Shown here in pieces: positions 2,484 to 25,004 of a stretch of 37,162 bases of DNA. Origin of the DNA: a bacterium. Its GTDB lineage: Bacteria; Verrucomicrobiota; Verrucomicrobiia; Limisphaerales; UBA8199. The translations under genes and the position numbers were made by a program. Location: assembly GCA_021784555.1 (NCBI GenBank), contig JAJYHY010000039.1, positions 1 through 37,162 of the forward strand. Reading direction: 5' to 3'. The notes beneath the pieces are model-generated. The model made no database searches, was not told where the DNA came from, and saw only the letters and a list, made by a program, of their open reading frames with translations. Position 1 is the first letter of the stretch. Each line of letters opens with the position of its first letter.

Positions 2484-3157
2484 CGGGTCACTGGGGGGCA
2501 GGGGGGCGAGTCGCTGAGCCAGCCCTTCCGCAGGGCGAATTGGACCATCTCGGTTCGGCTGCGCAATCCGAGTTTTTCACCCACGCGGACCTTGTAGGTT
2601 TCAACGGTCTTGACGCTAATGGCGAGTTCGGCGGCGATTTCCTTGTTGCTGTAGCCCCAGGCCAGGAGGGTTAGCACCGATCTTTCGCGCTCGCTGAGAT
2701 CGGTTCTCGTTTCGGATGAGTTGGCGGCCTTTGGGGCCAGGCGGCCGGCCAGAGCCCGGCTGGCAAGGGACTGCTCAAAATAGAGTCCGCCGTTGGCCAC
2801 GGTGGAAATGGCCTGGATAAGTTCGTCTCCGGCGGAACGTTTCAAGACGTAGCCGGAGGCGCCGGCCTTGCAGAGTTCGTTGAGATAGCTCTCATCCTCG
2901 TGAGCGGTTAGGACCACGACCTTGGCCGCCGGATTCTGGGCCTTGAGCAGTTGCGTAGCGCGCAAGCCGTTTAGCTCCGGCATGGAAAGGTCCATGACCA
3001 CCACGTCCGGTTCGAGTTCGCGGGCCATTGCCACCACCTCCTTGCCGCTGGCGGCCTGGCCGGCGACTCGCATGTTGGGGTGGGCGTCAATGAGCAGACG
3101 CAAGCCCTCACGCACCATTTGATGATCATCAGCCAGGAGTATGCGGAGCTTTTTCAT
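2480..3157 (-). CDS. NarL/FixJ-type response regulator
   Basis: This is a complete 225-residue protein. The receiver domain occupies about residues 4-120 with the acidic pair DD (10-11), phospho-acceptor Asp56 in VVVMDLSMP, and the conserved Lys in YVLKRSAG. A LuxR-type helix-turn-helix follows at about 155-215 (LSERERSVLTLLAWGYSNKEIA, then VKTVETYKVRV). It is a transcriptional regulator probably phosphorylated by the kinase encoded just upstream; its ATG overlaps that kinase's stop as ATGA (3154-3157). The C-terminal SDSPPCPPVTR tail lies in the zone of overlap with the convergent methyltransferase gene. Target promoters are unknown. Confidence 0.93.
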   Translation of the reverse strand: MKKLRILLADDHQMVREGLRLLIDAHPNMRVAGQAASGKEVVAMARELEPDVVVMDLSMPELNGLRATQLLKAQNPAAKVVVLTAHEDESYLNELCKAGASGYVLKRSAGDELIQAISTVANGGLYFEQSLASRALAGRLAPKAANSSETRTDLSERERSVLTLLAWGYSNKEIAAELAISVKTVETYKVRVGEKLGLRSRTEMVQFALRKGWLSDSPPCPPVTR

Positions 3158-4380
3158 GGGGCATTCTCGCGCGCGGAGATGAGCGGTTCTTCAGGAGCGG
3201 GCAGCCGGACAAAGATCGAGGTGCCCGCGGTCGGCGAGGATTCAATCTTGAGATTGCCGCCGACGAGTTTGACGCGTTCGCGCATTCCCAGCAGGCCGAG
3301 CTTGTGGCCGACCGTACCCATTGGGAGGTTGGTCTCGGGTTCGAATCCGTGGCCGTCATCTTCTACGATGAGCGAGACACAGTCGGAGCGGCGTTCGAGG
3401 AGCAGGCTGACGCGGCGGGCGCAGGCATGCTTGGCAATATTGGTCAAGGCCTCCTGGGCAACGCGGTAGAGGGTGGTTTCCAGCTCCAAGGAGAGGCGCG
3501 AGCCTTCCCAGCCCTGGGAATGGAGGTCGATAGGCACGCCGATATTCCTGGACCACTCCTGGGCGTAACGGCGCAAGGCAAGTTCGAGGCCGAGATCATC
3601 GAGAACCGACGGGCGGAGCTCCCAGGCCAAACGGTGGACATCACGGATAAGGCTGTCGGCGAGGGTCTGGAATTTCTCGAAGGTTTCCTGGATATGGTTT
3701 GGGAAGGGGCCTTGCTGGCGAACGGATTGAAGCCCCAGTTTGAGGGCAGTGAGATTCTGGCCCAGGCTGTCATGAAGCTCGCGCGAGATGCGCCCGCGCT
3801 CGGTTTCTTCGGCCTCCGCGAGGCGGCGGAGGACCTGGCCGTGGGCTTCCTCGGCGCGCTGGCGCTGGATGATTTCTTCCTGGAGAGCGCGATTGGCGCG
3901 AGAGAGTTGGGCGGTGCGCTCATTGACGCGGAGCTCCAGTTGGTCGCGCTGGCGCTGGAGGTTTTCCTCGGCGGATTTGAGAGCGACCTCAGCTTGCTTC
4001 CTTTCAATGGCGTAGCGAATGGCACGCGCGGTCTGGCGCCCGAAGGCCTGACCCTTGATGAGATAATCTTGAACTCCGTGGCGCACCGCCTCCAGACCCA
4101 CTGTTTCATCTTCGACGCCGGTCAAAACGACGATGGGCAGGTTGGGCGCCCGGGAGCGCGCCTGGACGAAGGTGCTGCGCCCGTTGACGTCAGGCAGGCT
4201 GAGGTCCAGGAGCATGACGTCGTAGGCGCTACGCTCCAGGCACCGCGCCGCCTCGGCCCAGCACTCCACGTGAGTAAACTCAAAGGAACCCGGGCCCGCC
4301 TCGGCCAGCGATTCTCGCAGAAGCGCCGCGTCGGAGGGGCTATCTTCAACCAAGAGGATATTGATTCGGGTCGTGGTCAG
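3154..4380 (-). CDS. Receiver-HisKA_3 histidine kinase (hybrid, NarX-like)
   Basis: Domain order is an N-terminal receiver ([14 protein letters not shown]; acceptor Asp in [13 protein letters not shown]), a coiled-coil linker, a HisKA_3 phosphotransfer helix with His in [18 protein letters not shown], and an HATPase_c domain ([30 protein letters not shown]). HisKA_3 kinases normally pair with NarL-type regulators, matching the next gene. The start is ambiguous. The only ATG ahead of the receiver is at 4533, deep inside the preceding gene. A CTG at 4380-4378 overlaps the preceding TGA as CTGA, which would suit coupled translation and gives 408 residues. A TTG lies inside beta-strand 1. I use the CTG, with low certainty about the start but high certainty about the function. 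Confidence 0.85.
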
Positions 4381-6938: not shown

Positions 6939-7913
6939 TCATCCTCCCGGTTGAATCAACAAGACCTCTGAACCCGCAGCGAGAGTCATTTCGGAGGGCC
7001 TGACCTCCGCCGGAACAAGGCAGAACTCGCCCTTCCGCAACTCCACCGAATGATCATGCCCAGCGACGCAAGCGCTGCCGGCCGCCAATCCGAGGATTTT
7101 CAGACCGGCTTTGGCGAGCGGCAAGCGCGCCTGAGTTCTGGCACGGAGAATCTCCACCCCGAACAAAGGGTTGTGAGCCAAGGGCCTGAATTCGAGGCCA
7201 TTCTTTGGAGAATATCCGCGGCTAATCAACGCCGGCTCAAAATCCTGGAAATCAATGCATGCCAAGGATTCGGGAATGTGCAGCGCCCGCGGCTTTCCAT
7301 CCAGCCCGGAACGGTTCCAGTCAAAAACGCGGTAGGTCGTGTCGGAGTTCTGTTGGATCTCGAAGATGACCAATCCCGCCCCAATGGCATGCACCCGGCC
7401 GCTCGGCAAAAAGATGGCGTCTCCTTGTTCCACGCGCAGGCGGTGCAGGCACTCGGCCACCTGGCCGGTCTGAATCTTGGCGGCGAAGCTTTCGGATGTC
7501 ACCCCGGCTTTTAAACCCGCGTAGAGCTCGGCCCCTGGCGCCGCATCCGCTACGTACCACATCTCCGTCTTGGGTTCTCCTCCGAGGCGGGCGGCTTCCG
7601 AGGGGGGCGGATGGACCTGTACCGAAAGGGTGCGGCGAGCATCCAGGATCTTTATCAACAGGGGAAAGCGGCCATTCTGAGCGCGAACGCGGCCGAGCAA
7701 CTCCGAAGCGCGGTGTTCCATTAACCAGCGTAAGTCCCGTCCGGCCAGGGGGCCATTGGCGATGGTGGTGGCATCGCCGGGGCGGTCGGCGACTTCCCAG
7801 GATTCACCGATGAGAGCAGCCGGAGGCAACGGCTTTCGGTAAAGCCGTTCGAGGCTGCGTCCGCCCCAGGGACGTTCTTTGAAAATGGGCTGAAATGTGA
7901 AAGGGTAGAGCAC
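6939..7913 (-). CDS. manA: Mannose-6-phosphate isomerase, class I
   Basis: 324 residues from a GTG start. The enzyme interconverts fructose-6-phosphate and mannose-6-phosphate and supplies mannose for glycans. The zinc-site residues are visible: Gln99 and His101 in SVQVHPPPSEAA, Glu117 in KTEMWYV, and His175 in FLPSGRVHAIGAG. The class I signature continues as EIQQNSDTTYRVFDWNR. The length fits the short bacterial form of the family. It is followed on its upstream side by accA on the same strand with a 43-bp gap, probably without functional linkage. Confidence 0.93.
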   Translation of the reverse strand: MLYPFTFQPIFKERPWGGRSLERLYRKPLPPAALIGESWEVADRPGDATTIANGPLAGRDLRWLMEHRASELLGRVRAQNGRFPLLIKILDARRTLSVQVHPPPSEAARLGGEPKTEMWYVADAAPGAELYAGLKAGVTSESFAAKIQTGQVAECLHRLRVEQGDAIFLPSGRVHAIGAGLVIFEIQQNSDTTYRVFDWNRSGLDGKPRALHIPESLACIDFQDFEPALISRGYSPKNGLEFRPLAHNPLFGVEILRARTQARLPLAKAGLKILGLAAGSACVAGHDHSVELRKGEFCLVPAEVRPSEMTLAAGSEVLLIQPGG

Positions 7914-7956
7914 TTAAGCAGCGCCATGGCGCCTCCGGCGGGTTGTCTTCGCCGGC

Positions 7957-8967
7957 TCAGGTTTTGACTTGGGGCTGGATGGACTTGTTTCCGGCCAGTG
8001 CCGCCTCTTCCTCATGGTAATGGCCGAAGGCGCGGAATTTTGCGTACCGCTGTCGCAGACGCTCGGCCACAGGGATTCGCACTAGGGCATCCAGGTGTTT
8101 GAGGAGACATTGCTGAAGCGCCCGTATCGTCGTCTCCTGATCCGTATGGGCGCCGCCGAGCGGTTCGGGGATTACCTCATCGACCAGGCCCAACTCAAGC
8201 AGGTGCCTGGCAGTGATTTTGAGCGCCTCGGCGGCCTTGGGGGCGGCCGCCCGATCTTTCCAAAGGATAGCGGCGCACCCTTCAGGGCTGATGACTGAAT
8301 AGTAGGCGTTTTCGAGTATGAGGACCCGGTCGGCAACACCGATGCCCAAAGCGCCGCCCGAACCGCCTTCGCCTATAACCGCGGCGATGACGGGCACTTC
8401 CAGGAGTGTCATTTCGCGCAAGTTCACGGCGATAGCCTCGGCGATGTGACGCTCTTCAGCCCCGATGCCAGGATAGGCGCCCGCAGTATCGACCAGGGTG
8501 ATGATTGGCAAGCCGAATTTGTCGGCCAACTTCATCAGGCGCAAGGCCTTGCGGTAGCCTTCAGGATGCGCGGAGCCGAAGTTCCGCATGATATTCTCCT
8601 TGGTGTCACGCCCTTTTTGAGTTCCGATGACGATGACTTTGTGAGGGCCAAGGCAGGCGAACCCACCGACAATAGCGCGGTCTTCGGCAAAGAGCCTGTC
8701 TCCGTGCAGTTCGCTAAACCCCGTGAATGCTGATTGAATATAATCCAAGGTGAAGGGTCTTTTGGGATGGCGGGCAATCTTTATCTTGTCCCAGGGGGTG
8801 AGATTGGAAAAGACCTGCCGCTTGGTCTCCTCCAGCTTCCTGGCGATGGTGGCGACTTCTTCTTCAAAGCTGATGCCGAGCGAATGAGTGTCGGGATGCT
8901 TCTTGAGCTCATCGAGCTTGGCCTGAAGCTCGGCAATGGGCTTTTCGAAGTCGAGTTGATGTCTCAT
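7957..8967 (-). CDS. accA: Acetyl-CoA carboxylase carboxyltransferase, alpha subunit
   Basis: 336 residues starting at MRHQLDFEKPIAELQ; an upstream in-frame ATG at 9072 would add 35 non-homologous residues. AccA and AccD transfer the carboxyl group from biotin to acetyl-CoA to make malonyl-CoA for fatty-acid synthesis. Family hallmarks are an N-terminal coiled coil (residues 1-50), TPWDKIKIARHPKRP, the crotonase-like core GTQKGRDTKEN, PIITLVDTAGAYPG, and GEGGSGGALGIGVADRV. Length matches the family. accD is not in the window. Confidence 0.96.
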   Translation of the reverse strand: MRHQLDFEKPIAELQAKLDELKKHPDTHSLGISFEEEVATIARKLEETKRQVFSNLTPWDKIKIARHPKRPFTLDYIQSAFTGFSELHGDRLFAEDRAIVGGFACLGPHKVIVIGTQKGRDTKENIMRNFGSAHPEGYRKALRLMKLADKFGLPIITLVDTAGAYPGIGAEERHIAEAIAVNLREMTLLEVPVIAAVIGEGGSGGALGIGVADRVLILENAYYSVISPEGCAAILWKDRAAAPKAAEALKITARHLLELGLVDEVIPEPLGGAHTDQETTIRALQQCLLKHLDALVRIPVAERLRQRYAKFRAFGHYHEEEAALAGNKSIQPQVKT

Positions 8968-9079
8968 TGGCGGGCAGGGTAGCGGGCCGGAGGTTCCCTG
9001 TCCAGCAGAGACAACTCTGGCAAACTCTGGCGCCTGTCCGATGCGCTCGCCTTCTGTGTTCCATGATTGCAATGGCAGG

Positions 9080-9433
9080 TGTTTTGGTTAACCCGAGGTC
9101 GAACGATCAAGGGCCATTACGCGGGCCAATCGCCGCGGTGCTTCTCGTTCTCCGGGGCCAACCTGCGGCGCAAGTACGGTCCCAATTGGCGGAAGGTATA
9201 TCCGGAAGTCATCCAGAAGCGATTGCGCAGTTGGGGCATCAACACCATCGGCAATTGGTCCGATGAAGCCATACGGCTCATGCGCCAGACGCCCTATACC
9301 GACGCCATTGGAACGGGGCGCACGAAGATAAGAGAATCACCAGATCGGATTCGTTGATGTGGCGGACACGCCTTATCGCGAAACCATCGAAGCCAGTCGC
9401 CAGGTCGGCGCCGAGCTCTATCCGGAGCATTGA
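9080..9433 (+). pseudogene. Remnants of decayed genes, one glycoside-hydrolase-like
   Basis: One plus frame around 9135-9315 carries FSFSGANLRRKYGPNW and RLRSWGINTIGNWSD, resembling a conserved block of putative agarase/galactosidase-like glycoside hydrolases in which a W-G-x-N-T-I-G-N-W-S-D segment recurs. It stops at about 9357 and has no plausible start or catalytic domain. A second short block in another frame, GFVDVADTPYRETIEASR, runs to a TGA at 9431-9433; I do not recognise it. Both look like leftover pieces of larger genes, the second overlapping the end of the Uma2 gene. The family assignment is from memory of the motif only. Confidence 0.4.
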
Positions 9434-10134
9434 GAACCAGACCCGGCCCGCAACCGCGCCAGGAATTCGGCGTGCGCCGGGTCCTTTAATCCCCGTTCGA
9501 GGGTGGCGAGCAGCCTGCGGCCTTCGTCAGCCAGCAGCGCGGGCACATTGAGCCAAAGACCGGGAAAAACACGGCTGCGAATCACGCCTTGGGCGTGGGG
9601 GACGAGCGGGCGGTATTCATCCTCCTCCAGCACCCACCAATCCACCGCGGCGTCTTGGGTGCGCCAGAGCAAATACTCGAGGACGCCGGCACGGCGGTAG
9701 GACTGGCGTTTGGCGCCAGCGTCAATCGAAACGCTGCTGGCGGCGATTTCCACCACCAACTCCGGCGGGCCCTGGAGATAGCCTTTGGCATCGACACGCG
9801 AGCGCCCGCCGGATTCCGGCAACACACGCAACAGGGCGTCGGGCTGCGGCACATCGTCTGGTCCTAGGCGGGCGGTGGCACCGGCGCCGGCCTTTGTGCC
9901 CGGAGTATAGGCGGCGTAGTGGAAGAGCCAGCCCTGCATAGCGTTATCCGGCTCGGCGTGTTCAGTCAGGCGGACGGGCGGGGGCATATAGACGGTTCCC
10001 TGGATTAGTTCGGCCTTCTTGAGTTCGGGCATGGCCTCGTAGCGGCGCAGGAATTCGTGCGCGTTGAGCCGATCCCCGTTTTCCAGCGGTGGAATGGCTT
10101 TGGCTTCTGCCGGGGCTATAACCGTGCCAACCAT
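9418..10134 (-). CDS. Uma2 family protein (DUF820, putative nuclease fold)
   Basis: 238 residues, ATG start. The core PQPDALLRVLPE, GPPELVVEIAASSVSID and YRRAGVLEYLLWRT matches the Uma2/DUF820 family, which has a restriction-endonuclease-like fold (Asp in QPD, Glu in VVEIA as candidate metal ligands). Such proteins are abundant in Cyanobacteria, Planctomycetes and Verrucomicrobia; their biological role is unsettled. It lies 45 bp downstream of efp on the same strand and may share its transcript. The 3' end reaches into the remnant sequence described at 9080-9433. Confidence 0.88.
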   Translation of the reverse strand: MVGTVIAPAEAKAIPPLENGDRLNAHEFLRRYEAMPELKKAELIQGTVYMPPPVRLTEHAEPDNAMQGWLFHYAAYTPGTKAGAGATARLGPDDVPQPDALLRVLPESGGRSRVDAKGYLQGPPELVVEIAASSVSIDAGAKRQSYRRAGVLEYLLWRTQDAAVDWWVLEEDEYRPLVPHAQGVIRSRVFPGLWLNVPALLADEGRRLLATLERGLKDPAHAEFLARLRAGSGSQCSG

Positions 10135-16999: not shown

Positions 17000-17929
17000 T
17001 CAGGGCGAGCGGGGCGCAACATTATCCCGGCGCCTCCGGGCCCGCCAGAGTCTTACCACTCCGACAAGCACCGCGGCGGCACCTGCCTGCACCAGTATCA
17101 GGACCAGGAGTATGGTGCGTGCCTCGGAGGGGCTGCGTGGTCTAGCAGACCTCGGCCCGCCGCTCACGCTGGCAATTGTCTGCTTGACAAGCTCTCTGAC
17201 GATCTGAGTCGTGTTCGTGGCGCGTACGATGGTATGTCCGCCGGGTACTGCGAACAACCCACTTCGGAAGGAGACGTTCGTCTGAATGTTGGAGTACCGG
17301 AACTCACTTACCACATGGCCATCTGCGTCGTAGCTGGACACCCTGCAAATGACGAAGCTATTCGGATCAATCCAGCGCTCCTGCCGCGTGATGACCGGTG
17401 CCGCGCCCTTTAGATGCATCAGCGTCGAGAGCTGCCGTTCCATCCGCAAAACCGGCTCCAGGAATGTTACGACGAGGACGAAGAACCGCCTCCCGCCGAG
17501 GGTGTCTCTGCGCACCTTGAGTCTGTAGTTCGCAGGGTCGCTGAGACGCGCACCTAGCGGCATCTGCTCCATGGTGGTCTGCCCTGGCATCTCCACGACT
17601 TGCTTTTGCCCTGGGAAGAACTGATACATTTTTCCACCCTCGATAATTGCGGTGAACTTGACCGTTACGGTGCCGCCCGCGCTTTCGCATACCGTATCGC
17701 GCCGCTGCCGTCTTCCGCGGCCCGGGCGTGAGTCGCCGTAGAGCACACCGTACGTCCTGGCACCAACGCCGATAGAGGGAAGCACTACCTCAAAGTTAGC
17801 CTTGTAACGCGGTAGATCCTCAAGGGGTATAGACGCCTTAAGGATCTCCTGTGCAGACTGGCCGAGGGCGAGCGGTGACGGGATCGTGCATAGGGCGCAC
17901 ATCAAAGCAAAAACGCAGTTTCTGTTCAT
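17000..17929 (-). CDS. Exported LolA/RseB-like protein with C-terminal membrane anchor
   Basis: 309 residues. A signal peptide (MNRNCVFALMCALCTIPSPLALGQS, cleavage after about residue 24) precedes an all-beta domain. Strands such as RYKANFEVVLPSIG, MYQFFPGQKQVVEMPG, LRMERQLSTLMHL, RQERWIDPNSFVICRVSSYD and VVSEFRYSNIQTNVSF resemble the LolA/RseB half-barrel (outer-membrane lipoprotein-sorting-like, here with FAVPGGHTIV). A transmembrane helix at about 274-295 is followed by a basic tail RLWRARRRRDN. It is the last gene of the RiPP operon, 30 bp after the permease. It may shuttle, sense or hold the exported peptide in the periplasm. The fold call is by pattern only. Confidence 0.6.
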   Translation of the reverse strand: MNRNCVFALMCALCTIPSPLALGQSAQEILKASIPLEDLPRYKANFEVVLPSIGVGARTYGVLYGDSRPGRGRRQRRDTVCESAGGTVTVKFTAIIEGGKMYQFFPGQKQVVEMPGQTTMEQMPLGARLSDPANYRLKVRRDTLGGRRFFVLVVTFLEPVLRMERQLSTLMHLKGAAPVITRQERWIDPNSFVICRVSSYDADGHVVSEFRYSNIQTNVSFRSGLFAVPGGHTIVRATNTTQIVRELVKQTIASVSGGPRSARPRSPSEARTILLVLILVQAGAAAVLVGVVRLWRARRRRDNVAPRSP

Positions 17930-17959
17930 ACCTCAATCCTCAAGATCGTCACCAAGTTA

Positions 17960-18688
17960 TCATCGGAGCCGAAGAATGCGAGCCGTCGCCACCCTGCCCA
18001 CAAGCAACCAGCAAACCAGGAGGGTGACGCCCAAGCCTAGGGCTAGAGAGCCCCCCGCGGCCAGCAGCGCGGACGGCCCTGGGCGCGACAGGGCGTAAAC
18101 ATAAAGTCCGACTGCCACCACGCCTGCCAGTAATGAGGCGACGAAGTGGCCAAACCTCATCACCCAGCAAAGAAACGAGCCCAGCGTGGCAATTGCCAGG
18201 GCGGCAAGCGGCGATATGACCGTGACCGTGAAGAGGTTGGTGAACGAGAAGACAACCGGCGAGCGAAGCATGTAAACCATTATTACGAGGTCGCCCTGGA
18301 CCACAAGCATGGCTGTCAGATAGCAAAAGAAAAGGACGACTAGCGTTCTGCCAAGCCACAGGAGGCCGGTACCCGCGCCGGTCGCAACTGCAGCCATGAG
18401 CGCGCCCGATGCCCGCTCCCTGGCGAGGCTCGTTGTAGAAAGTGTGTTGAGCACCCACGGCACGAGAATTGGTGGCACGAACGCCAATGACAGCGTGGGG
18501 TCCATCATGCCCAGCGTTGCCGGCCCGGCGCTGCTGCCCGTGACTAGCCCGCCTGAGTGCGTGTACCGGAACACGATTGAGAGTTGAACGAGCGACGACA
18601 TCACCGCCGCGGCCCCGATTTGACGCTTGCCTTCTCGGAGGACCAGGAGTGCCTCCTTCTTTATTACGGCTCGCAGGGCGGTTGTCAT
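17960..18688 (-). CDS. ABC-2-type permease subunit of RiPP operon
   Basis: 242 residues, about six transmembrane helices (approximate segments 28-40, 68-90, 108-130, 145-172, 185-202, 210-233). The N-terminus KKEALLVLREGKRQ and the central LARERASGALMAAVATG (the E-x-x-x-G cytoplasmic coupling helix of ABC-2 exporters) identify the fold. It starts 6 bp after the ATPase gene, so the two form one exporter. In this operon the cargo is most likely the modified Cys-rich peptide, but immunity or self-protection is an alternative role. No peptidase domain is present. Confidence 0.85.
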   Translation of the reverse strand: MTTALRAVIKKEALLVLREGKRQIGAAAVMSSLVQLSIVFRYTHSGGLVTGSSAGPATLGMMDPTLSLAFVPPILVPWVLNTLSTTSLARERASGALMAAVATGAGTGLLWLGRTLVVLFFCYLTAMLVVQGDLVIMVYMLRSPVVFSFTNLFTVTVISPLAALAIATLGSFLCWVMRFGHFVASLLAGVVAVGLYVYALSRPGPSALLAAGGSLALGLGVTLLVCWLLVGRVATARILRLR

Positions 18689-18694
18689 ATCGCG

Positions 18695-19630
18695 CTAGCG
18701 CCACCTGTCCTCCGTCAAGGAAAGGTAGATGTCTTCAAGCGTGGCAGATCTGCGCTCTACAGAATCGATTGACACCCGAGCCCTCAGAAGCCCCATTAGC
18801 AGGGCGTCGCAGCCGCCGTCTATCGATCCTAAATCGAAAGTCAGCGACCGCGCTTGCCTGGAGTACTTAGCCCCCCTCGCGATCGCGGGGAGTTCGGTTT
18901 CGGCGTAGTCCTTTGCCAGCCGGATGACAAGCAGTCCCCTACCCGCCAGCCGTTGTCTGAGCATTTCGAGGGTGCCCATGGCAATGATCTGACCTCGCGT
19001 GACGAGGGCAACGCGATCGCACACCCGCTCCACCTCGCCCAGATTGTGGGAGGTAACGAAAGCGGATGTGCCGCTCTCCCTCTGGTGTCGCGCCAACAGG
19101 TCGATCAGGGCGCGCCGGGATTCGAAGTCAAGGGCGTCGAAAGGCTCGTCCAGAACGACCAGAGTCGGGTCGTTCAGGAAGCATCGGGCCATGCTGAGCC
19201 GCTGCCTCATTCCCCTTGAAAAGGTCCGGATCGAAGCCCGCGCTCGGTCGGAGAGGCCCACAAGGTCCAGAACGTCACGGATGCGACCCTGACGCGCCGC
19301 ACCTTCGAGCCCGACCAATCCGCCGCAGTATTCCAGATATTCCTGCGGCGTCAGTGCCTCGCACAACCCGGGCTGGTGGAGCATTACGCCGACACGCCAG
19401 CCGCGATCACGCAGGGCGGTAGCGGGAGCGGTGCCAAAAACCGAGACCGCTCCCTGCGTTGCCTCATAAAAGCCAAGAGTCAAGCGCACCGCCGTGGTCT
19501 TGCCGCAGCCGTTCGGCCCAATGAAGCCCATGATCTCGCCGCGCCTGAGGCAGAAGCTGACTTCTCTGAGCCCCCTGGAGTGCCCAAATGCCTTCGTCAC
19601 GCCCTCGAACTCAACGACTACGCCGGACAT
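18695..19630 (-). CDS. ABC transporter ATP-binding protein of RiPP operon
   Basis: 311 residues. Walker A is GPNGCGKTT, Q-loop region VGVMLHQPGL, signature FSRGMRQRLSMAR (C-loop variant SRGMRQR), Walker B LVVLDEPFDALD, and switch His in FVTSHNLGEVERVCD. A roughly 80-residue C-terminal extension follows as in drug/bacteriocin-type exporters (DrrA/NatA-like). It overlaps the end of the second radical SAM gene by 13 bp and is followed by its permease after 6 bp, so it is co-transcribed with the maturases. Confidence 0.93.
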   Translation of the reverse strand: MSGVVVEFEGVTKAFGHSRGLREVSFCLRRGEIMGFIGPNGCGKTTAVRLTLGFYEATQGAVSVFGTAPATALRDRGWRVGVMLHQPGLCEALTPQEYLEYCGGLVGLEGAARQGRIRDVLDLVGLSDRARASIRTFSRGMRQRLSMARCFLNDPTLVVLDEPFDALDFESRRALIDLLARHQRESGTSAFVTSHNLGEVERVCDRVALVTRGQIIAMGTLEMLRQRLAGRGLLVIRLAKDYAETELPAIARGAKYSRQARSLTFDLGSIDGGCDALLMGLLRARVSIDSVERRSATLEDIYLSLTEDRWR

Positions 19631-20970
19631 AGCTCAAGACCGCGGTCGATTCCCAAAAGGTACAGAAACCCCTCGTGCTCAAGGCACTCCGGGGTGCCAT
19701 GCAGGTCTGCGCCGCTCATGACGGGGCAGTAAGCAGCGGACATCCTCGCGTCCTTAGCCGCGAACAGGTCCGCGGAAAGGCAGTCAAAGCAGACGGGCCC
19801 GAGCGGACACTCCCGGCACGACCCGGTCCGATCCTTGGACGCCTTCCAGAAGTCGTAGAGCCTATCATTCCTAAGCGCGTGCCCCAGGTCCCCGCCAACG
19901 ACCCGCCCACACTCGGCGTCGATGCCGGCACACGGGTGGAGCGATCCGTCCGTCGCAATCTCGAACCCGCCGTCGAGACATGCCCTGTGCCGCAGCCTAT
20001 GAAAAAAATCGTCGACGTCGCGCCACATGTGCAGCGGCCTCCTGCCCCCGTCTCTGCTCATCAGACGAAAGGGGCCGTCCTGGGGTAGCTGACGGATCTC
20101 GGCAAAACACGGGATCGCGCCCCATCGCCTCATTATCCACCGCAACGCGAACTGCGTGTCGGCAACCGCCTCGTCGGAAACCATCACGGTGACGGAAAAC
20201 GATAGCCCGGCCTGCCGCAGGGCGTCAAGCAGCATGCACTGAGCGAGAAAGACGTCGCCTGGCTGCGGCACGTATCGATCACGCCGCTCGCGAAAGCCGT
20301 GGAGCACCACATCGACCTGTACGTTGCCGAAGTCGTATAGGCCACGAATTTCGGCCACGCTACGCCCGGTACCGGGGCACGTTATGCCCACGCGGAGCCT
20401 CGGGTAAGCGGCCGCCGCACCAAGCACCTCGATCAAACGCTCCCACTCAAGCAGCGGATTTCCCCCACGGATCTGGAGCCGCCGGATCCCGAGAGCAGCC
20501 AACTGCCTGAGGAAGTCAGATGGGTTCCCTAGGCTTGCTGGCGGCACTGCCGTCCCCCCGCGCCGGACGCACGTTCTACACGCTTGTAGGGACGCCACGC
20601 CAGGCGCAACGGGACAAAAGCTGCAGTGGTGGTCGCAGCGGTCGGTAATCGTCCACGCGGCCACGGTGTACGAAGGCGGGGGCCCCAAACTCTCGAACGC
20701 CTCGAGCGGGGACCCAGCTAAAAGCTTGTCAACGTAAGTGCCTTCCGGGTGGTACCCCCCAAGCCCTAGCCGAACGAGCAGCCCGAGGAATCTCCGCGCC
20801 TCGGGGCGCTGCAGGTGGTCGGCCGGTGCCCCCGCTGTCTCACAACCGCGCAGGAGATCATGCGTCCGCTTGTCCAGGAGAAAGATCCGCCTGCCGAGTA
20901 TGTCGTAAAGCGCGGCACCCAGCGACCCCGCGCTGAGGTGACACTCCGGATTGAGCCGAAAATACCTCAT
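19618..20970 (-). CDS. Radical SAM/SPASM peptide maturase 2, N-terminal RRE-like region
   Basis: 450 residues. The radical SAM cluster motif is C112-DHH-C116-SF-C119 after WTITDR; SAM-binding GGNPLL follows (RLQIRGGNPLLEWE). The C-terminal SPASM cysteines are in HPCAGIDAEC, SCRECPLGPVCFDC and AAYCPV, which should hold auxiliary 4Fe-4S clusters. The first 95 residues (YFRLNPECHLSAGSLGAALYD, then RRIFLLDKRTHDLLRG) look like the small PqqD-like RiPP recognition element found at the N-terminus of many peptide maturases, so this enzyme may dock the precursor. It starts 9 bp after maturase 1. It is clearly different from maturase 1, implying a second, distinct modification. Confidence 0.9.
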   Translation of the reverse strand: MRYFRLNPECHLSAGSLGAALYDILGRRIFLLDKRTHDLLRGCETAGAPADHLQRPEARRFLGLLVRLGLGGYHPEGTYVDKLLAGSPLEAFESLGPPPSYTVAAWTITDRCDHHCSFCPVAPGVASLQACRTCVRRGGTAVPPASLGNPSDFLRQLAALGIRRLQIRGGNPLLEWERLIEVLGAAAAYPRLRVGITCPGTGRSVAEIRGLYDFGNVQVDVVLHGFRERRDRYVPQPGDVFLAQCMLLDALRQAGLSFSVTVMVSDEAVADTQFALRWIMRRWGAIPCFAEIRQLPQDGPFRLMSRDGGRRPLHMWRDVDDFFHRLRHRACLDGGFEIATDGSLHPCAGIDAECGRVVGGDLGHALRNDRLYDFWKASKDRTGSCRECPLGPVCFDCLSADLFAAKDARMSAAYCPVMSGADLHGTPECLEHEGFLYLLGIDRGLELCPA

Positions 20971-20979
20971 TCGCTCTAT

Positions 20980-22560
20980 TTATGACTGAAACAACCACCG
21001 TTCAGTCGCGACGTTGGCCGTTTGCGACCTGAACCGCTCTTGTGCATCAGGGCTCGACTCCATCAGCGAGACATAGTCCGCCAGATTCTTCCCAGCCTCT
21101 CGTACCGCGCCAGCGCAGTATCCAGACGGCGGCTTGACACCGCCGCAGACTTCTGACGCCGAAAAGCACATTCCGCACAGCCGTGTTATCGGACAGAGCG
21201 AACAGTTGCACAGAACTTCGCGCTGGTACTCGCGAATGAGCCGTGCGATCACCTCATAGTTGAGACCACCGTTCGTCAGGTCCCCGATCGGATAGGTACC
21301 ATTAACCCGCTCGCACATGTTGACGAGGCCGTCCGGGCTCACAGCCATCCTCAGACCGGGTATACAGCAGCCCGTGTATGGCAGGAACGGGCTCTTTGCG
21401 TCGTGGATTCGCGAGCGCAGGAACAACAGCATCATTGGTGCCGCAACCAGATTTCTCATGTAGCTTCCGACGCGGTCGCCAGCTATCTCGCGCCGCATAT
21501 ATTCGGCCTTCAGTGCGTGCAGCCGGCGGCTGAGAAGCTCATAGTCCTTCGGCTGAAACCGCCCATAATAGTTGGTGTTGTGGCTACCAACGGCGTTGAC
21601 GAAGGCGCTTCGCGGAATTGCGCTGGCGCCGTCGTCAAAGAACCGTGATATCGCTGCCACATCAGACAGCGGATCGTAGACAGAAAGGGACACAAGGCAT
21701 TCCCTCCAATAGTTGGGGTGCTCTCGCTTGATCCGAATCAGGTTCGCCTCGATGCGCCCGTAGCTACCCGTGAGCCCGTGGTCAACCCTGAGCCTATCGT
21801 GCTCTGGCTGGGGCCCGTCGATGCTCACAGCCACATGGACGCGGTGCTCCCTCAAGACCTCCACGTTCTCGGGCGTCAGCAGAAGCCCGTTCGTGTTCAG
21901 CACGGGGAAGAAGAGACCAGGTACCTGCGCTTCAGCGAACTCCAGAACGTGCTTGATCACCGCGATGTTCAGAAGCGGCTCGCCACCGTAGAAGCTGAGG
22001 CCGTACCGCTTCCTCGGATTACGCGCAACATGCTGACCCACCCCCTCCAGGAACCACTCAACAGCGCTGACCGCCTGGCTGGGCCTCATGGAGCGACCTG
22101 TAGGACCTCTGTGGTAATAGTACGAGCCGGAGGCGTACGTGCAGTACCGGCAGGACAAATTGCAGTTTTCCGTCACAATCAACACCAGCTCGCTACAGTT
22201 GGCCCAAACGAGAGATCGCATCTCACAGGCAGCCGGAGTCGCCAGGGCGGGATGTGGGGGCCGCGCGAAGGCGTGGAGATGGACCAGCCAGCGCTGGATT
22301 TGAGCTGCGCACGCGGTTGCCTCGGCGCTATCGGCGGTACCGAGGGCGCGGCGATGCGCCTCGCTGAGCGAGTCGCGCAGCTCCCGCCTCAACGTCGCCT
22401 CCTCGAGCGCACCCCAGGGGAGAATGGCCCCCGTCACGTCGTCATAGAGATACTCGTTCCCGCAATTCGACGCGAACTGAACCGTCACACGGTGCAGGGC
22501 CGGATGGGGATCCCCAGGTCCTTCGAACAGCGGCGCAGGTGTGTCAGAGCCGTCAGACAT
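20980..22560 (-). CDS. Radical SAM/SPASM peptide maturase 1
   Basis: 526 residues. An N-terminal region with NEYLYDDVTGAILPW resembles the leader-binding segment of thioether-forming maturases. The cluster motif is C133-NLS-C137-RY-C140, followed by the SAM-binding SFYGGEPLLN and later NTNGLLLTPENV and VSIDGP. The SPASM part includes YTGCCIPGLRMAVSPDG, NMCERVNGTYPIGDL, VLCNCSLCPITRLCGMC and EVCGGV, as in sactipeptide/ranthipeptide and SCIFF-type maturases. It is the first enzyme gene after the Cys-rich peptide (132-bp gap). Predicted chemistry is radical formation of thioether bridges from Cys sulfur to nearby backbone or side-chain carbons; product not established. Confidence 0.92.
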   Translation of the reverse strand: MSDGSDTPAPLFEGPGDPHPALHRVTVQFASNCGNEYLYDDVTGAILPWGALEEATLRRELRDSLSEAHRRALGTADSAEATACAAQIQRWLVHLHAFARPPHPALATPAACEMRSLVWANCSELVLIVTENCNLSCRYCTYASGSYYYHRGPTGRSMRPSQAVSAVEWFLEGVGQHVARNPRKRYGLSFYGGEPLLNIAVIKHVLEFAEAQVPGLFFPVLNTNGLLLTPENVEVLREHRVHVAVSIDGPQPEHDRLRVDHGLTGSYGRIEANLIRIKREHPNYWRECLVSLSVYDPLSDVAAISRFFDDGASAIPRSAFVNAVGSHNTNYYGRFQPKDYELLSRRLHALKAEYMRREIAGDRVGSYMRNLVAAPMMLLFLRSRIHDAKSPFLPYTGCCIPGLRMAVSPDGLVNMCERVNGTYPIGDLTNGGLNYEVIARLIREYQREVLCNCSLCPITRLCGMCFSASEVCGGVKPPSGYCAGAVREAGKNLADYVSLMESSPDAQERFRSQTANVATERWLFQS

Positions 22561-22692
22561 AGCGCAGAAGGTGCCCGTGGGCGGATGTGCTTGCGGCGGA
22601 CCGCCTGGGCCGGTACGACGGCCGATGCCGTCCCGCTAGCCGCATCAGCGCCCAGGCCATCGACCCAGCCCATGCCGAGCGTAACGCGCGCA
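22561..22692 (-). promoter_or_regulatory. GC-rich structured spacer between precursor and maturase genes
   Basis: 132 bp with several short inverted repeats: TAACG/CGTTA arms straddling the precursor stop (22682-22686 and 22696-22700), GGCGG-a-CCGCC at 22595-22605, and GCCC-gt-GGGC near 22573. No U-run follows. Such a structure after a precursor gene often lets the peptide be made in excess over the enzymes by partial termination or transcript protection; that is inferred. Confidence 0.4.
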
Positions 22693-23088
22693 TCACGTTA
22701 TGATCGGTTGCCCCTGGCCGAGCGACTGGCCATCCGTAGCGGCGACCGACAGCCCCCTCGCCGTTGATGTTGTTAGTGTGGTGGCCGTACTAACTGTGCC
22801 GGGAACGGCACCCGCCACGGCCGTGCCGCAGGTCGCACCGTAGCCGATGCCCAGGGCCAAGGAAACAGCCAGCGCGAAGCCCCCGCCAAGAAGGCAACCA
22901 GCCGCGCAGACTGCGGTACAGTCCACAGCACAGGCTGTGCCACACGGGACGCCGCAAGTACTCAGGCACAAGGCCGCGCAATAATACACACAACTCTGAC
23001 CGCAACTGCTCACACAACAGTTGCCGCAGTACGTCTGGCATGGAAAGTCGCACTGCGAGTCCATGGGCACAACCAAATCATCGACCAT
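22693..23088 (-). CDS. Cys-every-fourth-residue RiPP precursor peptide
   Basis: 131 residues from the ATG at 23088, chosen because GGAG lies 6 bp ahead; a TTG at 23100 is a weaker option. The leader is only 12 residues (MVDDLVVPMDSQ). Cysteines then occur at 13, 17, 21, 25, 29, 33, 37, 41, 45, 49, 53, 57, 61 and 65, a perfect CX3 register, plus Cys24 and an isolated Cys87. The X residues are mostly small (Gly, Ala, Ser, Val, Thr). Residues 66-100 are a Gly/Ala-rich hydrophobic segment (LLGGGFALAVSLALGIGYG) and 100-131 are Ser/Thr/Gly-rich. With two radical SAM/SPASM enzymes downstream it is best read as a thioether-type RiPP precursor. TIGRFAM/NCBI describe a CXXX-repeat peptide class; whether this belongs to it needs a profile search. 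Confidence 0.88.
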   Translation of the reverse strand: MVDDLVVPMDSQCDFPCQTYCGNCCVSSCGQSCVYYCAALCLSTCGVPCGTACAVDCTAVCAAGCLLGGGFALAVSLALGIGYGATCGTAVAGAVPGTVSTATTLTTSTARGLSVAATDGQSLGQGQPIIT

Positions 23089-24162
23089 AGCCGTCTCCAA
23101 TTCACACTTTCACGAACCACCGGGGATCGGGGCCATCCCGCCCGGTCTGAGGTTCGCGGCTTACTAACTGCATGCAATGTAAGCTATCTCGTGCTCCAAA
23201 CGCCACAATTCTCACGAACCATTTGCCGACACATGCGACCCTGTGGCGACATTCGTCCATCGCGGGGCCCTGCGGCACCGCCAGTGCCAAGCTCCGCCCG
23301 GATCGAGGACCACCTCCTGCGCGCGGCAGTGTGGTGCGCCGCGCTCCGTGGGCGTTGCTCCCCGTTCGTTGTCCATGTTGCGTTCCGCATGAGAATGTAG
23401 CGCGAGCGCGGCAAACGGTTCCCGGCGAAGCGCGAGGGCCGTATGCACGTCAGCTCACGGGAGCTAATTCCTTGACCTAGCGCGCAGGGAAGGCGCGTCG
23501 GTACCCGCGTTTGTGGCATCGTCAACGCCCCAGCTGCTCGGTAGCGGAGGCCCAGCGTCCCACGAGTGGCCGACCCCGGCGCTAAGCGGGATTCCGGGTC
23601 TCGGCAGGGACCAACGTGCAAGATTATTTAGGCCTCCAGAGGGCTCGACCCCCCAAAAGGCCAATCTGGGCGCCCAGACAGAAGCCGCGCAAGCGGGCCG
23701 AGACACCTGTCAAAATGGGCCAGAGACGGAGTGCCAGCGTTGGAGGAAGATCCTCGCAGCCGCTCGCGCCAGGCGTGCGGATAGTGGCTGCATGCTCTCT
23801 GGCCAATCTAACCCGCCGGCAGACTCCGGCAGACTGTCGCTGGACGCCCGCGCAGGAATGCGGTAGTTTTAAGAAATGCGCGATCATCAACCCAGAACTC
23901 GGCACGCGCGACCCCGATCCGCACCCGAGAAGCCCGTCGATTCCAGGAGCACATGGCTACCGTGTCCCCGCGCTTACGCACTCTGTGTGTCACGCCACAG
24001 CGTTCAGCCTTTTCCGACCGGCTATCACGGCGATGTGTTCCAGAGCAGGCCGAATGCCCCACTCAAGGTCCGGACCGGTGGCACGCCTTCCTCGGCACCG
24101 TGGGTATCCTTTGGAGTAGCGGTGTCCAGAGGCCATTTGGAACCGCGAGGATAACACAAGCT
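23089..24162. other. Gene-poor region upstream of RiPP operon
   Basis: About 1.07 kb. Open frames exist but none shows a family, membrane or signal pattern, and they overlap each other on both strands. The first 150 bp must hold the RiPP promoter on the minus strand: a weak sigma-70-like pair is TTGTGG near 23207 and TAGCTT near 23184 (read on the minus strand), with a TGCATGCA palindrome just downstream. The rest could be decayed genes or a mobile-element scar; I see no inverted terminal repeats. Confidence 0.4.
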
Positions 24163-24680: not shown

Positions 24681-25004
24681 TTATTCGGGTCCCGTGAGTG
24701 AGCACGGCGGATGGCCCCAGTACCGCCTAAACGCGCGCGAGAAATGCGTCGCATGCGCGTAGCCCAGGTCGGCTGCGACGACCTTGACCATAGTGCCCTG
24801 CTGCAGCAACTCCTGCCCGCGCACTGCTCGCTGCTCGCCTAGCCAAGCCCGGAGCGGCTTGCCCGTCTCTCGGAGCACGCGTCGCTCGAGTGTCCGGACC
24901 GAGACGCGACAGGCGTCGGCCATTCCCTTACCAGACCACTTGGCCCGAGCGGCTAGTTCTCGCAGGCTGTGCTCTTGTTGCAGAAGGGTGTTCTTCATGT
25001 TCAT
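24681..25004 (-). CDS. Short AraC-type helix-turn-helix regulator
   Basis: 107 residues, essentially only the two-HTH AraC DNA-binding domain: GMADACRVSVRTLERRV (first HTH), KPLRAWLGEQRAVRGQELLQQG (linker), VKVVAADLGYAHATHFSRAFRRYWGHPP (second HTH). There is no ligand-binding domain, so activity may be set by abundance or a partner. Start Met1 or Met3. It lies 15 bp after the GtrA-like gene on the same strand, so it could be read from that transcript, but it is also the nearest transcription factor to the RiPP operon. Downstream 24436-24680 holds nothing recognisable. Confidence 0.85.
   Translation of the reverse strand: MNMKNTLLQQEHSLRELAARAKWSGKGMADACRVSVRTLERRVLRETGKPLRAWLGEQRAVRGQELLQQGTMVKVVAADLGYAHATHFSRAFRRYWGHPPCSLTGPE

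Follow-up and report, generated by a model that had tools for sequence, protein, structure and literature searches.

What does a bacterium make from a small peptide that carries 14 cysteines, one at every fourth position? This question is raised by a Verrucomicrobiota contig, JAJYHY010000039.1 of assembly GCA_021784555.1 (8.8 Mb in 658 contigs), whose 37,162 nucleotides are the window analyzed here. The peptide gene is followed on the same strand by genes for two radical S-adenosylmethionine (SAM) enzymes with SPASM domains (rSAM1 and rSAM2), an ATP-binding cassette (ABC) ATPase, a permease, and an exported protein. A preliminary description had taken the six genes as an operon for a ribosomally synthesized and post-translationally modified peptide (RiPP) with two radical SAM/SPASM maturases, and our analysis supports this as the best reading. 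The RiPP class was borne out, while the kinship of the enzymes to the thuricin CD/thuricin Z-type pair had gone unrecognized. We consider it probable that the genes form a two-enzyme sactipeptide-type operon of this kind with a much enlarged precursor, in which up to 14 thioethers are proposed.

Organization of the operon

Recomputing the open reading frames (ORFs) returned six minus-strand genes between 23088 and 17000 with gaps of 132, 9, -13, 6, and 30 bp, identical to those claimed, and the ORFs together with domain matches confirmed the kinds of product named beforehand. The features are as follows; the ORFs have the same limits as the genes, except that the first spans 22693-23100.

22693..23088, minus: precursor peptide gene, 131 residues from ATG 23088 (135 from TTG 23100), GGAG upstream
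22894..23052, minus: cysteine ladder, 14 cysteines in one CX3 register (C13-C65), proposed thioether donors
22696..22893, minus: 66-residue tail with a four-residue register, putative acceptor strand
20980..22560, minus: rSAM1, TrnC/ThzC-like radical SAM/SPASM enzyme with a predicted N-terminal domain like a RiPP recognition element (RRE)
19618..20970, minus: rSAM2, TrnD/ThzD-like radical SAM/SPASM partner
18695..19630, minus: ABC transporter ATPase (PF00005, 93.8 bits)
17960..18688, minus: small ABC permease with hydrophobic segments (hhalign, 67.8% to seven permeases)
17000..17929, minus: exported protein with a signal-like N-terminal and a C-terminal membrane segment, weakly LolA-like

The GC content of the operon per kilobase (0.59 to 0.65) lies inside the range of the remaining window, and composition therefore shows no sign of recent transfer.

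The precursor peptide

The ATG at 23088 is the likelier start of the peptide, with GGAG at 23098-23095, six bases upstream. Among its 16 cysteines, 14 fall into the single four-residue register, and C24 and C87 come in addition. A DNA pattern for nine cysteines in CX3 spacing matched the window six times (overlapping, all within 22894-23052) and never in 100 dinucleotide shuffles; the CX3 pattern in the peptide gene is beyond chance. The ladder is not a tandem array at the DNA level, where Tandem Repeats Finder gave one 32-base row with a score of 32. Run against RiPP-family profiles, as the preliminary description had proposed, the peptide matched none of the CXXX-repeat models TIGR04114, TIGR04115, TIGR04117, and TIGR04118 (E up to 10), nor the huazacin model NF037972 (cut-off, 35 bits) at E up to 1 and 10; the peptide of one related locus (L146 in our numbering) passes the latter.

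The radical SAM pair

Both enzymes match Radical_SAM (PF04055) above its cut-off. In rSAM1, the CX3CX2C motif, GGEP, and seven SPASM cysteines are all invariant in a 14-sequence alignment. Its best curated model is the CcpM family TIGR04068, at 149.7 bits far under the cut-off of 500; RumMC, also among the first few by score, is missed by far (131.3 versus 720), and the CXXX-repeat maturase TIGR04115 is not reached (43.4 versus 350). Matches to anaerobic sulfatase maturases had been named beforehand as evidence against a RiPP operon, and this identity was rejected for rSAM1, which scores only 59.7 on TIGR03942 against a cut-off of 349.45. rSAM2 matches curated models weakly, and sulfatase maturase, heme d1, or MoaA-type identities were likewise rejected on their weak scores. 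The structure model of rSAM1, with a mean predicted local distance difference test score (pLDDT) of 79.3, begins with strands at 26-30, 36-40, and 45-48, followed by helices at 51-62, 65-72, and 78-95, and from this order we read the N-terminus as RRE-like.

Comparison with relatives of the pair supports assigning rSAM1 and rSAM2 to the TrnC/TrnD (ThzC/ThzD) type, known from thuricin CD and thuricin Z (huazacin), small antibiotics with sulfur bridges that other bacteria make with such an enzyme couple. Sequence alignment reveals that CX3CX2C is kept in 14/14 rSAM1 and in 13/15 rSAM2 proteins, the exceptions being the rSAM2 of L139 and L142. In thuricin CD, the radical SAM cluster of TrnC is essential and that of TrnD is not (PMC12093266, cited from excerpts of its text, as are the other papers below), and the constant motif of rSAM1 and its occasional absence from rSAM2 fit that report. 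The TrnD-like partners without the motif (L139:11478-12758 and L142:11478-12758) retain their SPASM cysteines and look as though radical SAM chemistry were no longer needed there. Moreover, pairwise distances among rSAM1 proteins correlate with those among their partners (r = 0.84, 14 pairs; r = 0.55 for 12 pairs without L142 and L137, permutation 0.0006).

The solved relatives of rSAM1 raise a different possibility. The best fold match of its model is 5wgg (TM-score of 0.63 by query length), and in a search of PDB sequences its profile scores 157 bits on 5wgg versus 36 bits on the sactisynthase SkfB; being nearer to 5wgg, it does not let the linkage type be read from sequence. We take 5wgg/5why, the nearest solved relative in both searches, to be CteB of a ranthipeptide system. 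The product could then be a locally crosslinked RiPP of the CXXX-repeat or ranthipeptide type, in which each cysteine joins the alpha, beta, or gamma carbon of a residue in or near its own repeat and the tail serves as a follower or export signal. Long CX3 peptides without a tail do occur beside other SPASM enzymes, as at L135 in the same phylum (genome G692), where a peptide of 100 residues (172-474), which combines a Tat-like signal with 12 cysteines in CX3 register, adjoins a single SPASM-type radical SAM protein (610-2112); this peptide is weakly TIGR04117-like (22.2 bits; cut-off, 50) and ends without a tail past its cysteine array. However, read by eye, the repeats of our peptide have no column in which an acceptor residue stays constant, the enzymes fall in with thuricin Z-like pairs, and the TIGR04115 score of rSAM1 and the missing CXXX matches of the peptide point the same way. 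Local crosslinks would also leave the length and register of the tail, described below, unexplained, and we regard them as unlikely.

Distribution of the pair and its peptide

To collect related loci, genomes were scanned with four aligned rSAM1 proteins, and the best 80 of 306 related stretches were taken. In tblastn with rSAM2, a match lies directly after rSAM1 in L141, L136, L149, L152, L140, L150, L138, L144, L145, L155, L146, and others, and an rSAM2 profile search added further adjacent pairs. Adjacent rSAM1-rSAM2 pairs thus recur across phyla, their records being labeled Lachnospiraceae, Clostridium, Paenibacillus, Parageobacillus, Halanaerobiales, TA06, Bipolaricaulota, Paludibacter, and Methanothrix; several are metagenome-assembled genomes, whose taxon labels can mislead.

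Our set of 23 loci, each matched by the rSAM2 profile, includes 21 with an adjacent rSAM1 (L232 and L236 have none). A small ORF counted as a ladder ORF when it lay on the same strand no more than 6 kb away and had three or more cysteines in a CX3 run or four or more in a CX2 run. Such an ORF stays near the pair in 18 of the 21 pair loci (16 CX3; two CX2, L143 and L148), the reverse of the unlinked peptide gene that the preliminary description had named as counter-evidence. From the 16 CX3 loci, 19 peptides were kept, and a short ORF of L144 (6843-6962) was set aside as unlikely. On the opposite strand, ladder ORFs lie near 4/23 loci, and the remaining 63 radical SAM loci of the same scan have them in 18 cases on the same strand and in 10 on the opposite one; according to these controls, ladder ORFs are also found beside other radical SAM enzymes or through chance, though at a lower rate. 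The huazacin model is passed by the L146 peptide (71.4 versus 35), and those of L144 (34.4), L152 (28.2), L233 (16.7), and L145 (14.8) stay below its cut-off.

Cysteine-rich peptides can bind metal, and the peptide might be a metal-binding or disulfide-rich one beside enzymes that act on something else. Given the company that peptide and pair keep in those 18 loci, and the membership of one peptide in the curated huazacin family, we rejected a metal-binding peptide without maturation as very improbable.

L143 and L148 have low rSAM2-profile scores (117 and 150 bits) and may form a side branch. At L143:3671-4132, a CX2-type array with nine cysteines in register and then an Ala-rich tail adjoins a radical SAM pair with a low-scoring partner. 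Upstream of the pair in L136 lies a protein with PqqD, B12-binding, and radical SAM domains (6997-8673), and in L149 the pair and an ABC exporter are succeeded by a subtilase-family peptidase (7266-9929), a candidate leader protease. Elsewhere in the taxonomic class of our contig, another SPASM-type maturase adjoins a 348-residue cysteine-rich protein (L007:1150-2592 and 2630-3676).

At 1e-30, the rSAM2 profile matched in 5/178 genomes of a Bacillota sample and in 0/119 genomes from the phylum of the TA06 genome, in each case besides the genome at the center of the sample. In its own phylum at 1e-15, it matched in 1/158 genomes besides its own (G482; 73.5 bits versus 374.2 for our gene), and no second radical SAM ORF was seen within the 4 kb read there. 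When 387 genomes of the phylum were searched with the rSAM2 sequence alone, our gene and one 91-residue partial match came back. rSAM1 at 1e-15 found only partial relatives beyond its own genome, in 2/335 class and 7/337 phylum genomes, with the first relative counted in both tallies. Against plasmids, rSAM1 matched 145 records, all below 60% identity (7/10 among the matches listed are annotated peaB), the rSAM2 of L146 matched one distant record, and our rSAM2, peptide, and last protein as queries had no match.

Among phages, rSAM1 matched 42 distant records, and the 79 viral loci that contain a relative of rSAM1 gave no rSAM2-profile match at 1e-25. The nine-cysteine CX3 DNA pattern matched at least 120 stretches of viral contigs. 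Ten phage-like viral contigs (L247, L248, L251, L255, L257, L258, L252, L302, L314, and L318) carry dense cysteine-array proteins near radical SAM relatives, with CTCTC or CX2 repeats forming the protein end or the whole protein.

Ladder and tail geometry

In thuricin Z, Cys4, Cys8, Cys12, and Cys16 are linked to His38, Tyr34, Thr30, and Asp26, respectively (PMC8172795). The innermost acceptor lies ten residues past the last cysteine and the next ones at intervals of four, so that n rungs need 10 + 4(n-1) tail residues. We derived this rule from that paper and tried it by eye on part of the same peptide set before the count given here. For n = 14, our peptide needs 62 residues after the last in-register cysteine and has 66. 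When the rule was applied to 20 peptides (ours and the 19 relatives, with one skipped position counted as a rung in L137 and L138), 16 had 1 to 7 residues to spare. After removal of four near-duplicates (L142, L152b, L234, and L235), tail length correlated with total cysteine span (r = 0.93 for 16 peptides; r = 0.86 for the 15 without ours) and, with our peptide included, with rung number (r = 0.76). Fits made without our peptide predict a tail of 48 to 77 residues for it, varying with the measure and with the inclusion of L141 and L237.

The tail register comprises positions +2, +6, +10, and so on, in the phase set by thuricin Z. Gly, Ala, Ser, or Pro occupies 0/17 register positions of our tail versus 31/49 positions elsewhere in it (Fisher, 1.9e-6; any-phase permutation, 2e-5). 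In the L146 peptide, residues +10, +14, +18, and +22 are D, T, Y, and Y, and the thuricin Z acceptors are Asp, Thr, Tyr, and His.

Besides the nearness of rSAM1 to 5wgg, several observations weigh against a thuricin-type ladder. Four of the 20 peptides break the length rule, with 12 (L139), 12 (L142), 16 (L237), and 30 (L141) residues to spare, and without our peptide the correlation of tail length with rung number is weak (r = 0.32; Spearman 0.55, p = 0.03). The Gly/Ala/Ser/Pro class was picked after the tail letters had been seen and most relatives lack the contrast, so the register is suggestive for our peptide only. C87 falls in the proposed acceptor register, C24 is out of the ladder register, and the peptide itself fails the huazacin model. 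No ladder ORF accompanies 5/23 loci (L149, L150, L155, L232, and L236), two of which lack an adjacent rSAM1, and identity to the aligned relatives is just 24 to 32% for rSAM1 and 15 to 22% for rSAM2. We regard the length rule as supportive, not as proof.

The ladder may also be only partly used. The characterized sactipeptides reviewed in section 3 of PMC8172795 contain one to four thioethers, and the other 19 peptides of our set have 3 to 6 register positions each, which would suit a thioether hairpin with far fewer than 14 rungs, crosslinked in its inner part and with its other cysteines free, in disulfides, or bound to metal. Nevertheless, the tail suffices for all 14 rungs and its register reaches to the end; such a shortened hairpin seems to us somewhat unlikely.

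Putative export genes and the last protein

The ATPase matches ABC_tran (PF00005) above the cut-off, and its best NCBIfam model, drrA, stays under its own (185.4 versus 312.45). An ATPase gene directly follows the pair in L137, L138, L139, L146, and L148 and, by tblastn, also in L142. The permease matched no Pfam family and is distantly related to the seven permeases, which come from related loci (E = 4.9e-5).

The last protein has hydrophobic segments at its N- and C-termini. Its earlier designation as LolA/RseB-like finds weak support in a match of residues 181-217 to the LolA-like PF17131 (14.7 bits; cut-off, 30), and the LolA label is unproven. Its structure model is poor (mean pLDDT, 38.5), no match was found in 135 relatives besides its own genome, and among the related loci it has no clear relative, the best hit (E = 0.19, 31 residues) being to the LolA-like L239 of the same genome. 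Genes for an ABC exporter, a Yip1-domain protein, an outer-membrane efflux protein, and an HlyD-type adaptor come after the pair in L141, the TA06 cluster; with these envelope-crossing genes in view, it is plausible that our operon, too, encodes a protein that assists passage through the periplasm.

At 24681-25004, upstream of the operon and also on the minus strand, is a gene for an AraC-type helix-turn-helix protein of 107 residues (PF12833, 64.9 bits).

Proposed pathway and product

In the two-enzyme sactipeptide-type pathway that we favor, the TrnC-like rSAM1 would use its RRE to bind the peptide and, as a complex with the TrnD-like rSAM2, would generate radicals on tail residues, which the ladder cysteines would capture. 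The last cysteine would pair with a residue some ten positions further on, and each cysteine before it with a residue four positions further out, so that up to 14 thioethers would hold a nested hairpin together. Export of the product, or protection of the cell against it, may fall to the ABC ATPase and permease, and the anchored periplasmic protein may receive, hold, or pass on the product in this diderm host. The alpha-carbon position of the thioethers, the number of rungs, export, and activity are all inferred.

More tentatively, and with the balance tilted against it, we can picture the product in its fullest form as a giant sactipeptide, a rigid nested hairpin with 14 consecutive thioether rungs, built rung by rung by the thuricin-type pair and brought across the diderm envelope with the help of the anchored periplasmic protein. 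If true, this 14-rung rod would found a new size class among ribosomally made peptides, and it might span membranes or have a structural role and not be a small antibiotic. As a natural substrate with 14 in-register donors, the peptide would offer a test of how far a two-enzyme complex can run and of whether the length-and-register rule predicts crosslinks from sequence. The operon also places a TrnC/TrnD-type pair in a Verrucomicrobiota host, where export must cross a second membrane.

Comparison with known systems

CX3 cysteine arrays beside radical SAM enzymes are likewise found in the CXXX-repeat families TIGR04114, TIGR04115, TIGR04117, and TIGR04118, whereas our peptide has a long tail and matches none of their models, and rSAM1 stays far under the TIGR04115 cut-off. 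The CcpM family TIGR04068 is the top curated model for rSAM1, yet the score is far from sufficient. In the openly licensed literature, which covers few subscription journals, we found nothing on the CXXX repeat, nor on ACGX together with radical SAM enzymes, and no sactipeptide with more than four thioethers appeared among the papers listed. The Verrucomicrobia row is empty in the table of RiPP classes seen in excerpts of PMC4289311.

In thuricin CD, TrnC and TrnD act as a complex, TrnC having a canonical RRE and seven auxiliary-cluster cysteines and TrnD fewer (PMC12093266). rSAM1 and rSAM2 appear to show the same division in RRE and cysteine count, and a complex here is an analogy; thuricin CD has two short precursors with three thioethers each, whereas our operon has one long precursor. 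The thz cluster for thuricin Z, or huazacin, of Bacillus thuringiensis serovar huazhongensis likewise combines a CX3 cysteine-ladder precursor with the divergent radical SAM genes of ThzC and ThzD, the ABC genes thzE and thzG, and the permease gene thzF (PMC8172795). It differs in having four thioethers and two precursor copies against one precursor with 14 in-register cysteines and an extra exported protein here, and our peptide lacks a match to the huazacin model. Judged by sequence, the operon combines the features of the thuricin CD/Z type: an adjacent, divergent radical SAM/SPASM pair, TrnC-like and then TrnD-like, a cysteine-ladder precursor, and ABC genes; the structure model adds a predicted RRE-type N-terminus on the TrnC-like enzyme. 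The enzyme pair is probably of a known kind, and what would be new is the unusually large ladder precursor, here in a Verrucomicrobiota host.

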